A DNA stretch of 64,000 nt, from NCBI GenBank assembly GCA_947058615.1, contig CAMSHF010000001.1:62001-126000 (forward strand), read 5' to 3'. The position numbers and the translations under genes are program-made. A model generated the notes under the pieces. That model was not told the origin of the DNA and searched no databases. It saw nothing but the letters and a program-made list of their open reading frames with translations. The stretch's first letter is position 1. Every line of letters begins with the position of its first letter. This DNA comes from an uncultured Rickettsiella sp. GTDB taxonomy: Bacteria > Pseudomonadota > Gammaproteobacteria > Diplorickettsiales > Diplorickettsiaceae. Of this stretch, positions 10,467-58,564 are shown in pieces.

Positions 10467-10772
10467 TTAATTAAGCGATGAGCTTTCAATATGTTGTAAA
10501 CGACCATTAGAGAATATAAGCGACACTCTTTTTTGTAGAGGCTCACCATAGCCTGGCTGGAAAAAATAAACATAGTCTTGACGATCCAATTGAAAAGGAG
10601 ATTGTAATACACAGCTACCTAATAGATAACTAACTTTCTCCTTAGTCATACCAAGCTTTAACTGGTCTATGGTAGACTGCTGCAATATATTACCCTGTTG
10701 AATATTAGGCCGATAAACAATATGACAACCTGAAATTATTAATGCAAAAAACAAACTAACCACTTTTTTCAT
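10467..10772 (-). CDS. bamE: Outer-membrane assembly lipoprotein BamE
   Basis: Accessory lipoprotein of the BAM complex that inserts beta-barrel proteins into the outer membrane. The 101-residue precursor has a signal peptide with lipobox IISGC (Cys16) and the SmpA/OmlA fold: IDQLKLGMTKEKVSYLLGSCVL, then QDYVYFFQPG and RVSLIFSNGRLQHI. fur is divergent 83 bases away; a bamE-fur neighbourhood is common in gammaproteobacteria. Confidence 0.93.
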   Translation of the reverse strand: MKKVVSLFFALIISGCHIVYRPNIQQGNILQQSTIDQLKLGMTKEKVSYLLGSCVLQSPFQLDRQDYVYFFQPGYGEPLQKRVSLIFSNGRLQHIESSSLN

Positions 10773-34369: not shown

Positions 34370-36091
34370 ATGATAAGAAAAATAAAATTGACTGTAGCAG
34401 GTTTCGCCCTATTAAATATCCTTTTTATCCCCGCAGGATACGCAGAACATCCTCGTGTAATGTATCAAATTCAGGGACTTAATCAAGATCTCGCCAGTAC
34501 TGTTCGAAGTCAGCTTGATCAAAGCCTAAAAATTTTAAAACACTCTTCCAGTACAGAAATTCAGCTCTGGTATCAACACTCTATCTCCGCTATCAAGCAA
34601 ACCCTGGAAGCTTATGGTTATTTTAAGCCTTCAATCGAACATACATTAAAAAAAATTGATGGTCACTGGAACGTAAATTACCAAATTTCTGTAGGTCCTT
34701 TACTAAAAATTACAACATTAGACATTTTAGTTGAAAATACTAAACAAGATCCAAAAATAATTAAACTAATCGCTGATTTTCCATTACACGCAGGTGATCC
34801 TTTTTCTAGTAAAGTCTATGAGAATGCGAAACAGAACTTACTGATTAAGGTAATTTCTGCTGGCTATCTTTCAGCCTATTTTTCTAAGCATACTATTTTA
34901 ATTAACCGTCAAGCTTATACGGCTAAATTTATCCTAATTTTAAATCCCGGTCCACGCTATTATTTTGGCCCTATTACTTTTAAACAATCCATACTTAACG
35001 ATAATTTATTAAAACGCTATCTCCCTTTCAAAGTAGGGGACCCTTATTCTTCAATACAACTACTAAAACTACAAGAGGATTTAAACAATAGTGGCTATTT
35101 TCAAAACATATCCACTCCTGATTTACAGATAAATAAAAAAAATCAAAATCTGCCTATTATTTTTGCTTTGACCCCACGTCCCTCCCAACAATATACAGCC
35201 GGAATAGGCTATGGAACAGACACGGGGATGCGTGGAACTTTAGGTTTGGAATCCCGCTATCTCAACAAATCAGGTCATCGTTTAAGTATTGTTAGCCAAC
35301 TATCAAAAATACAAAACAGCTTTCAAACTACTTATACCATTCCTGGGAAACACCCTAACTCTGATAGTTATAATATTAATTTTTCTGTTACTAGAAAAAA
35401 ACTGACTCAAGTCACTAGCACCACTCAACAATTAGGGGCAAGCAGCCTAAGCAAATGGAAGGGTTGGCAACGCAATTTATTTTTAAACTATCAAGTTGAA
35501 CATTTTAATTATCTAAATCAACCAACAACTAACTCATACTTATTAACTCCAGGTATCAATTTGTCATACAGCACATTTGACAATCTTTTGTTCTCCTTAC
35601 ATGGTTATCAGTTCAATTTTAGATTACAAGGTGCAGATCAAAATTTTTTATCGGCAACTAGCTTTTTACAAACTGAACTAAGCGGGAAGTATATCATCAG
35701 TTGGAATAATAATAGCCGTCTACTATTTCGTGAAGATGTGGGCTATACACTCACCTCCAATCTTGCAAATTTTCCTTCCTCATTACTTTTTTATGCAGGA
35801 GGAAGCCAAAGTGTGCGTGGTTATGCCTATCAATCGCTCGGTCCTGGTCGTTATTTAATGGTGGGAAGCGTTGAATATCAATACCGAATTATTAATAACT
35901 TTTACGCCGCTATCTTTTTTGATTTGGGAAATGCTGTCAATAATTTTCCGATTAATTTACAAAAAGGGACGGGTCTTGGTTTAGTCTGGGCATCACCATT
36001 AGGACCTATAGAGTTCACAGCAGGTAAAGCGTTGGATATCCCCGGGCACCCCATAAGATTTCAGTTCATCATGGGCTTTGATTTCGTATGA
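34370..36091 (+). CDS. tamA: Translocation and assembly module TamA (Omp85 family)
   Basis: Outer-membrane half of the TAM machine that helps insert outer-membrane proteins and move phospholipid. The 573-residue precursor has a signal peptide (about 1-25, ending AGYA), three POTRA-like repeats (about 30-265; e.g. LTFKQS-type GPITFKQSILND and SIQLLKLQEDLNNSGYF) and a 16-strand barrel domain with the Omp85 signatures FYAGGSQSVRGYAYQSLGP and FFDLGNAVNNF, ending with aromatic FQFIMGFDFV. tamB overlaps its stop by four bases. Confidence 0.94.
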   Translation: MIRKIKLTVAGFALLNILFIPAGYAEHPRVMYQIQGLNQDLASTVRSQLDQSLKILKHSSSTEIQLWYQHSISAIKQTLEAYGYFKPSIEHTLKKIDGHWNVNYQISVGPLLKITTLDILVENTKQDPKIIKLIADFPLHAGDPFSSKVYENAKQNLLIKVISAGYLSAYFSKHTILINRQAYTAKFILILNPGPRYYFGPITFKQSILNDNLLKRYLPFKVGDPYSSIQLLKLQEDLNNSGYFQNISTPDLQINKKNQNLPIIFALTPRPSQQYTAGIGYGTDTGMRGTLGLESRYLNKSGHRLSIVSQLSKIQNSFQTTYTIPGKHPNSDSYNINFSVTRKKLTQVTSTTQQLGASSLSKWKGWQRNLFLNYQVEHFNYLNQPTTNSYLLTPGINLSYSTFDNLLFSLHGYQFNFRLQGADQNFLSATSFLQTELSGKYIISWNNNSRLLFREDVGYTLTSNLANFPSSLLFYAGGSQSVRGYAYQSLGPGRYLMVGSVEYQYRIINNFYAAIFFDLGNAVNNFPINLQKGTGLGLVWASPLGPIEFTAGKALDIPGHPIRFQFIMGFDFV

Positions 36092-52171: not shown

Positions 52172-52684
52172 TTAGGGCTTAATTAGGGGGTTATTTTTTA
52201 CCAAAATAATCTCAACTCGTCGATTAAAGCTACTTCCTTTAACATTTCGATTGCTTGCAATAAAATCACGTCCACCATATCCCATAGTACGCAAACGTTG
52301 CGAACCTATTCCATGTAGCCATAAAAAATTTGTAATAACTTCTGCTTGCTCTTCTGTAATAGTAGAGGCAGTTTGCGAATCATAAAGATCATCACTGTAG
52401 CCAACTACTTGGATTAAACCACTCCCATAAGATTTTACAAGTTTGATAGTTTGGCTAAGCTGATGGGCACAGCGGGTAGTCAATTTTCCATTGGGTCGAA
52501 AACAAACATCACTATAAGCAATAACTCTAAGTCGATCAGCACTTTGGATAACTTGTATAGCAGAAGATGGTAGTAATGTTTTCTTTGAAGGGCCACTATC
52601 TACCGGAGGATTTACAACACATCCAGTTAAAACAAGTAAAGTCGTACATAACGCACAACAAAAAAATAATGCTTTTTTTTTCAT
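52172..52684 (-). CDS. OmpA-like peptidoglycan-binding lipoprotein
   Basis: From the ATG at 52684 (GAGAAAG just upstream) the precursor has 170 residues: a signal peptide with lipobox VLTGC (Cys22), a short linker, and an OmpA-C domain (about 45-165) with LIQVVGYSDD, QAEVITNFLWLHGIGSQRLRTMGYGGRDFIASN and the terminal NRRVEIIL that contacts murein. It is probably an outer-membrane lipoprotein tied to the wall. The layout also resembles IcmN/DotK of the Legionella Dot/Icm system, but no other dot/icm gene is near, so I leave it unnamed. It follows rsmB by 26 bases. Confidence 0.85.
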   Translation of the reverse strand: MKKKALFFCCALCTTLLVLTGCVVNPPVDSGPSKKTLLPSSAIQVIQSADRLRVIAYSDVCFRPNGKLTTRCAHQLSQTIKLVKSYGSGLIQVVGYSDDLYDSQTASTITEEQAEVITNFLWLHGIGSQRLRTMGYGGRDFIASNRNVKGSSFNRRVEIILVKNNPLIKP

Positions 52685-52710
52685 GATCTTTCTCATTTTA
52701 TTCTAAAAAG

Positions 52711-56731: not shown

Positions 56732-56823
56732 TGGCGGAGAGGGTGGGATTCGAACCCACGTGGAACTTTAAATCCCCAACCGATTTCGAGTCGGCGCCAT
56801 TATGACCACTTTGGTACCTCTCC
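56732..56823 (-). tRNA. tRNA-Ser (CGA)
   Basis: Minus-strand 92-nt class II tRNA. The acceptor GGAGAGG pairs with CCTCTCC ahead of the encoded GCCA; the T-arm reads GTGGGTTCGAATCCCAC and a long variable arm is present. The anticodon loop CTCGAAA between CCGA and TCGG gives anticodon CGA, reading UCG. It lies between thpR and the BamC-like gene. Confidence 0.96.
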
Positions 56824-56859: not shown

Positions 56860-57096
56860 TTAATTAATTGGAGGTAGCAGATCAGGAAGTTCTGTAGGCC
56901 TACTACCAATATTCTGAGGAATAATATATCTCTCTTCTCTAGGAATCTGCAAACCTGCTGAAACTTCTAATATAGGTAACTCTTGACTATACAAATATTG
57001 TGAACGTTGTGTTTTTATATATTTATTAACCGAAGAGCAAGCCGATAAGTCTACAATAAAAAAGATCAAAATTAAATAAAAGAGCTTCGTTCTCAT
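56860..57096 (-). CDS. Mini BamC-like lipoprotein
   Basis: A 78-residue lipoprotein precursor: signal peptide with lipobox DLSAC (Cys20), then about 58 mature residues. These follow the N-terminal unstructured segment of BamC: CSSVNKYIKTQ, YLYSQELPILEVSAGLQIP, RYIIPQN and a final proline-rich PDLLPPIN. In E. coli that segment wraps around BamD, and two helix-grip domains follow; both are absent, and the frame ends cleanly. It starts directly after the dapA stop, the same dapA-bamC order as in E. coli. This supports homology despite the small size. Confidence 0.75.
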   Translation of the reverse strand: MRTKLFYLILIFFIVDLSACSSVNKYIKTQRSQYLYSQELPILEVSAGLQIPREERYIIPQNIGSRPTELPDLLPPIN

Positions 57097-57972
57097 TTAT
57101 GGCAAGGTCTCTAATAACTGGATAATACTTTTCAAATCAGTTTGATGTTTAGTTGATAACGTTGTCAGAGGTAACCGCAAAGTAGATGATGAGATCAAGC
57201 CTTTTTCTGCCGCTAACCATTTAACAGGTATCGGATTAGTTTCTATACACAATCCTTGATATAACGGACGAAGTCGTTGATCTATTTTCTCAGCAGCTTC
57301 CCAATCCTCTTTTTTAACAAACTCATAAAGCGTATGAACAGTCTGAGGCACAAGGTTTGCTGCTACAGAAACGACACCTTTACCGCCTATACGCATAATT
57401 TCTAAAGCAGTGTTATCATCTCCACTATAAACATCTATATTTTTACCACATAACTTTAAAATGGTTTTTGCTCGCTCGAACTGACCTTCTTTAATACCTA
57501 CAATATTTGCAATACCCGCTAACTTTAGGACGGTTTCAGGTAATAAGTCACATCCGGTACGTCTAGGGACGTTATATAAAATTTGTGGGATAGGAACCTT
57601 TTCAGCTACATATCGATAATGTTGATAAAGTCCTTCTTGTGTAGGGCAATTATAATAGGGCGTCACTAATAAACACGCATCTACGCCTATTTGCATAGCC
57701 ATTCGCGTCTGATCAATGGTTTTCTGAGTAGATTGTGCTCCTGTTCCCGCTATGACCGGGATACGTCGATGGGTTTGTTCAACAACGGTTTTTATGACAT
57801 TATTTTGTTCCTCTAAGCTAAGCGTTGATGCTTCGCCGGTAGTCCCAACAACAACAATAGCATCTGTTCTTTGGGCAACATGCCAATCAACTAATTTACG
57901 TAAACAAACATAATCTACATCTCCATTTTCCCGCATAGGTGTTAACAATGCGACGATACTGCCATGAAACAT
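57097..57972 (-). CDS. dapA: 4-Hydroxy-tetrahydrodipicolinate synthase
   Basis: Condenses pyruvate with aspartate semialdehyde, the first step to diaminopimelate and lysine. The 291 residues begin MFHGSIVALLTPM; GTTGEASTLSLEEQ, PYYNCPTQEGLYQHYR with the catalytic Tyr in YNVPRRTGCDL, and the Schiff-base Lys in VGIKEG are all present. GAGGAAG seven bases before the ATG at 57972 decides the start over an ATG-like frame eight codons upstream. Cotranscribed with the BamC-like gene. Supplies murein cross-bridges. Confidence 0.96.
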   Translation of the reverse strand: MFHGSIVALLTPMRENGDVDYVCLRKLVDWHVAQRTDAIVVVGTTGEASTLSLEEQNNVIKTVVEQTHRRIPVIAGTGAQSTQKTIDQTRMAMQIGVDACLLVTPYYNCPTQEGLYQHYRYVAEKVPIPQILYNVPRRTGCDLLPETVLKLAGIANIVGIKEGQFERAKTILKLCGKNIDVYSGDDNTALEIMRIGGKGVVSVAANLVPQTVHTLYEFVKKEDWEAAEKIDQRLRPLYQGLCIETNPIPVKWLAAEKGLISSSTLRLPLTTLSTKHQTDLKSIIQLLETLP

Positions 57973-58564
57973 AGTCTTGCTTCCTCTTGTTATCAAGATT
58001 AGTCTGATTGTACTAGAAAAGTGGTTTTTTAATGTTAACTGCGAGCAGTATATCCGATCACAGACCGGATAGACACAAATAAACTTTCAAGACAAAAAAT
58101 GCTTGGCACAAATCCCTGACAGAAAATGCGCTTTTTTGCTAGTTTACACTACAACAAAAAATAACTGAAAGACTGATACAGATTCTATTTTTTTATAAAG
58201 CTTTCTTAAAATTGTATAAAATAAGAATTTTTTAATGGCTCTTTTTGATTCAATTGATATATTTTTTAGCAGATAACATTGAGCGTCAAGGCATACTGGA
58301 AAAAAGAGATTTCCGTGTCACTCCAGAGAAAATAAAACCCCGCCTTTTTCCTTAAAAAAATTTGAAATAGCGAATTTAACTGTCTCACTAAAGGGTAACC
58401 CGTAGCTAAGCAAGTTAGTTCCAGTGTAAGATAGCCCCTTTAGTAGGTGTCAACGCAGCTCTCAGAAAAATAATGAGACTCCTTTAGCGAGAGTTTTAGA
58501 AATCTAGTTAACATATGGGAAAACCTGATATTAAAATTCGATTTTCAAAGAATAGGGCTAGGCT
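57973..58564. other. Long spacer between divergent dapA and amgK
   Basis: About 590 bases without a convincing gene. A short run near 58270-58350 (ADNIERQGILEKRD...) looks protein-like but has no start and ends at TAA, so it may be a relic. The right part holds complementary segments that could form alternative hairpins, listed separately. Confidence 0.4.
58383..58492 (+). promoter_or_regulatory. Possible two-state hairpin region upstream of amgK
   Basis: ACTAAAGGG (58387-58395) pairs perfectly with CCCTTTAGT (58436-58444). The same left arm, extended to TCTCACTAAAGG (58383-58394), also matches CCTTTAGCGAGA (58481-58492) with one mismatch. The two pairings exclude each other. A third small stem, CTCA/TGAG (58461-58476), lies between. 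It could be a leader switch for amgK-murU or chance; no known riboswitch is recognised. Confidence 0.3.

Follow-up and report, generated by a model that had tools for sequence, protein, structure and literature searches.

A short lipoprotein gene after dapA in an uncultured Rickettsiella sp. very probably encodes a lasso-only variant of BamC

The window examined here is a stretch of 64,000 nucleotides from the genome of an uncultured, intracellular Rickettsiella sp. (assembly GCA_947058615.1, contig CAMSHF010000001.1), and the gene in question, here called mini-bamC, follows dapA on its minus strand. Its product is a lipoprotein of 78 residues that is homologous to the N-terminal lasso of BamC, a component of the beta-barrel assembly machinery (BAM), which builds outer-membrane proteins. 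The gene occupies the bamC locus, is under purifying selection and comes with no detectable helix-grip domain in a genome that encodes BamA, BamB, BamD and BamE. We consider it very probable that mini-bamC is the bamC orthologue at its usual site, reduced to the lasso, and that its product would wrap and steady BamD. We refer to it as a lasso-only variant of BamC, since locus, lasso and lipoprotein form fit BamC, while the full-length definition, with two helix-grip domains and a curated score, fails.

Results

The open reading frame (ORF) of mini-bamC runs from an ATG start over 78 codons to a TAA stop, and the first base of its ATG immediately follows the stop codon of dapA. The lipobox reads LSAC and its cysteine, residue 20, is presumed to be lipidated. 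The lasso elements follow (Table 1), and the frame closes two residues after the last of them, PDLLPP. The lipoprotein with a clean stop that the first-pass annotation had placed after dapA was thus recovered, and dapA itself was identified by TIGR00674. When the structure of the chain alone was predicted, a helix was obtained for the signal peptide, while the remainder was largely unfolded (predicted local distance difference test, pLDDT, about 60-67) and no globular part appeared. Such near-absence of fold in the isolated protein would be expected for a strand that becomes ordered on a partner.

To exclude help from signal peptides, and because curated models hint at BamC without deciding, the mature region was compared alone. 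In an hhalign comparison of mature regions, 14 family sequences aligned to 26 full-length BamC N-termini with P 5e-9 and a score of 46.6, while the best score in 300 column shuffles was 21.6. A hidden Markov model (HMM), built from mature N-termini of full-length BamC only, was then applied to every lipobox-like segment in the window and at the loci, 1,212 in total. It found mini-bamC with E 4.3e-5, the runner-up in the window having E 11, and its matches at E <0.01 were almost all dapA-next proteins or full-length BamC. Finally, a profile of 16 short proteins, including their signal peptides and without any enterobacterial BamC, was searched against the whole PDB: the top 11 matches were all BamC, the best with E 2e-6 over E. 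coli residues 16-87. An earlier search of this kind (E 6e-12) was set aside and rerun, since its alignment contained the BamC lasso of Candidatus Gillettellia cooleyia. The Pfam family DUF7209, matched by mini-bamC with E 0.018, was likewise dropped, as most relatives prefer PF06804 positions 1-35. Judged from these sequence comparisons, chance does not explain why the protein resembles the N-terminus of BamC, and the order of lasso elements that had been read from the protein by eye is borne out.

The end of the protein deserves attention as well. In BAM structures, E. coli BamC residues 32-85 form the ordered lasso that touches BamD (PMC5056442), and several BamC chains in the PDB comprise no more than this segment, with 56-67 residues. 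Consequently, mini-BamC stops where the lasso ends.

Substitutions in mini-bamC follow the pattern of a coding gene under purifying selection: among 45 pairs within the genus, the median ratio of nonsynonymous to synonymous substitution rates (dN/dS) is 0.15 overall, 0.44 in the signal peptide and 0.11 in the mature part. It is a working gene and not a chance frame. Frame and position after dapA are kept in 9/9 other members of the genus (60-83% identity) and in five of the six other family genomes (40-53% identity), so that four other genera carry it; the sixth, in which the gene was not found, is 80% complete. The closest named relatives by DapA are a Coxiellaceae metagenome-assembled genome (MAG), Candidatus Aquirickettsiella gammari and Rickettsiella, and the short frame is also kept in named Rickettsiella, Aquirickettsiella and Legionella. 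In Rickettsiella massiliensis (L185 3412-3690) the frame continues into what appears to be the tRNA-Ser gene downstream, so that the protein would acquire an unusual C-terminal tail.

The globular part of BamC was searched for in several ways. PF06804 has no match in the host genome, which is 1.37 Mb in size and rated 100% complete, and across the family it yields only sub-threshold matches to profile positions 1-35, located on the short protein itself. The rest of the host genome yielded no full-length bamC, and no helix-grip ORF adjoins mini-bamC, in agreement with the first-pass annotation, which held that both helix-grip domains are gone. The possibility that the gene is split, its helix-grip part lying at another place, was also considered and rejected: tblastn with 31 BamC C-terminal parts gave scattered weak matches in the window, none of them adjoining mini-bamC. 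The remaining machine is present. BamA, BamB and BamE are encoded in the host genome, and BamD was found in 16/16 family genomes, alignable with solved BamD across nearly its full length.

The short form is not confined to this family. Among 274 gammaproteobacterial genomes, PF06804 was absent at E 0.001 in 95, and the gene after dapA was read at 67 dapA loci of genomes without it. At 37 of these loci the gene encodes a lasso lipoprotein whose mature part has at most 110 residues (E <1; E <0.001 at 27; one of the 37 cut by a contig end), and at 11 a longer one. Conversely, PF06804 is absent in 23/23 genomes with a family-profile match (E <0.001) in a short frame, a count that sets aside one match confined to the signal peptide, and no genome with both mini and full-length bamC was seen in the survey. 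Legionella rowbothamii, L. saoudiensis and further Legionella MAGs carry the short lasso form with 52 to 78 mature residues. Three MAGs (L187, L188 and L190) show the order dapA, mini-bamC and an apparent purC, the latter read by eye; dapA-bamC-purC is the gene order in E. coli.

Intermediate forms were observed too. In L186, L235, L137 and L162, the BamC form next to dapA comprises the lasso and one further segment, which matches PF06804 positions 222-321 in L235, while L162 matches positions 2-111. On the DapA tree, L186 is sister to the family that bears the short form, and its longer BamC, with one further domain, is probably a one-domain form. The tree requires at least three changes, whether losses or gains, for the short form.

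Discussion

The comparison with E. coli BamC (NlpB) is the natural starting point. Both proteins are lipoproteins encoded after dapA, and both show the same order of elements (Cys, Y, L-x-x-L-x-x-P-A-G, Y-x-I-P, PP), aligned over residues 16-87. However, E. coli BamC continues after the lasso with two helix-grip domains to 344 residues, whereas mini-BamC ends at residue 78. The forms L235, L162 and probably L186 share the lasso after dapA but keep one globular segment.

Some results weigh against reading mini-bamC as a reduced bamC. The NCBIfam BamC model NF008674 matches it with E 0.004 and 16.1 bits, while the cut-off is 371. The single sequence does not reach PF06804; on family members this model gives 10-18 bits against a cut-off of 25, so that the curated whole-protein score is missed. 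The E. coli BamC chain was found with E 1.3 when the single sequence was searched against the PDB, and a profile of family members only attained just E 0.006. The extra domain of L186 appears helix-grip-like by eye, while Pfam matched only its lasso, and whether domains were lost or gained is read from one DapA tree. Such weak scores of the single sequence are what would be expected of an unrelated small lipoprotein after dapA that shares a few residues with BamC by chance. Yet the two-way profile tests on mature regions, with their shuffles and decoys, and the recurrence of this lasso motif behind dapA across many lineages, with others having full-length BamC at that place, make this extremely unlikely.

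Mini-bamC might instead be a decaying, non-functional remnant of the kind that genome reduction in symbionts would produce. The small host genome fits this idea, and a related case exists: in Candidatus Gillettellia cooleyia, an enterobacterial symbiont (L224 3399-4040), an intact frame covers the lasso and stops behind it, as in mini-bamC, while the globular part is still recognizable downstream with ten in-frame stops. This is recent decay with globular remnants, whereas such remnants are absent beside mini-bamC. Moreover, the mature part of mini-BamC is under purifying selection, and conservation of the gene extends over the family and to Legionella, whose members are not reduced symbionts. 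We therefore regard decay as highly improbable. Equally improbable appears an independently evolved BamD-binding lipoprotein that converged on BamC, as argued for BamF of Caulobacter and other alphaproteobacteria. BamF, a lipoprotein of the BAM complex, resembles BamC in a motif close to the membrane, as mini-BamC does, and it has only this short N-terminal motif in common with BamC, the remainder being different (PMC3359395). However, mini-bamC occupies the bamC locus and excludes full-length bamC, and there is a gradation via one-domain forms, in which PF06804 matches the second part. BamF is set apart from mini-BamC by its description, with a different C-terminal part and another lineage, and the general Pfam scan of the mini-BamC protein listed no BamF-type family.

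A further possibility overlaps with the orthologue reading and differs from it in function only: mini-BamC might be a lasso-only BamD-binding lipoprotein with a separate function, for instance as a regulator that blocks the substrate groove of BamD and not as a stabilizer. In E. coli, the pocket of BamD in which substrates presumably bind is occupied by the lasso (PMC4890855), so that gating could be the main task of a free lasso. The present data are equally compatible with a stabilizing role, and deletion of E. coli BamC has little effect (PMC13067283). We consider a dedicated regulator rather unlikely, albeit far less so than chance, decay or convergence.

If mini-bamC is indeed a bamC orthologue reduced to its lasso, the following mechanism can be envisioned. 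Behind the signal peptide and a lipidated Cys20, about 58 extended residues would end where the E. coli lasso ends. The lipid would anchor the protein in the outer membrane, and the chain would wrap along the tetratricopeptide repeat (TPR) groove of BamD as the E. coli lasso does, thereby perhaps steadying BamD and the joint of BamA and BamD. It may gate the substrate site of BamD as well, and it would have no globular domain with which to touch the POTRA domains or SurA. We favor the view that it braces BamD and possibly also gates the substrate site there; in vitro, BamC increases assembly by BamADE (PMC11130730). The helix-grip domains were most likely lost rather than gained, since the sister lineage on the DapA tree has a longer BamC with one further domain.

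The first-pass annotation had proposed that the tether onto BamD is the essential part of BamC and that the globular domains are dispensable in this lineage. Each of the three observations that it had named as refuting its reading was looked for, and none was made. Retention of the lasso by selection stands, while "essential" is too strong: since E. coli can dispense with BamC, the lasso is better called the part that selection retains. The globular domains are absent here, but this is not special to the lineage, as it also holds for Legionella and other Gammaproteobacteria. The same stripped form in these groups suggests that the lasso strand is the part evolution keeps. One might go further and speculate that BamC has its conserved functional core in the lasso. 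Over much of the Gammaproteobacteria the lasso would then work by itself, as a lipoprotein resembling a peptide that braces the groove of BamD or gates it, and the globular domains would be lineage-specific additions or losses; BamC would have to be redefined by its lasso and its reported distribution revised. We consider the chances of this wider view to be evenly balanced.

The two globular domains of BamC are seldom resolved in structures. BamC has been called the most mysterious BAM lipoprotein (PMC13067283), and we found no description of a lasso-only BamC in the literature searched, mostly without subscription papers. Here, nature has apparently performed the domain-deletion experiment more than once. 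Since a genome with the set of BamA, BamB, BamD and BamE keeps only the strand that would wrap BamD, the lasso is pointed out as the working part, and mini-bamC is a small, testable object for BamC function. The universality of BamC in beta- and gammaproteobacteria, as stated in a 2012 survey, needs to be qualified as far as one family is concerned, since in many lineages, including Legionella, the short form goes undetected by the full-length model.

Other features of the window

Table 1. Mini-bamC, its parts and related features, in window coordinates.
Feature	Position	Strand	Basis or counterpart
mini-bamC, gene of a 78-residue lipoprotein with the BamC lasso only	56860..57096	-	ORF, homology, dN/dS
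Signal peptide, residues 1-19, with terminal lipobox LSA	57040..57096	-	sequence; N-terminal helix in predicted structure
Cys20 codon, presumed lipidated cysteine, invariant among the short proteins	57037..57039	-	sequence, alignment
Lasso core YLYSQELPILEVSAGLQIP, residues 34-52	56941..56997	-	full-length BamC counterpart Y-x-x-S-x-x-L-P-x-L-E-V-P-P-x-L
YIIP, residues 57-60	56917..56928	-	counterpart of E. coli BamC YAIP
PDLLPP, residues 71-76	56869..56886	-	counterpart of LDIRPP closing the E. coli lasso
dapA, directly upstream	57097..57996	-	TIGR00674, E 1.9e-103
tRNA-Ser(CGA), directly downstream of mini-bamC	56732..56823	-	
bamE	10491..10694	-	PF04355; contig 72491-72694 (window offset 62000)

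Besides bamE, which lies in the same window as mini-bamC, a second Omp85-type ORF was observed at 34490-36037 (+); it is probably TamA, its TIGR03303 match being below the cut-off. A lipoprotein of 174 residues, encoded at 52172-52696 (-), is OmpA/Pal-type in appearance by eye.
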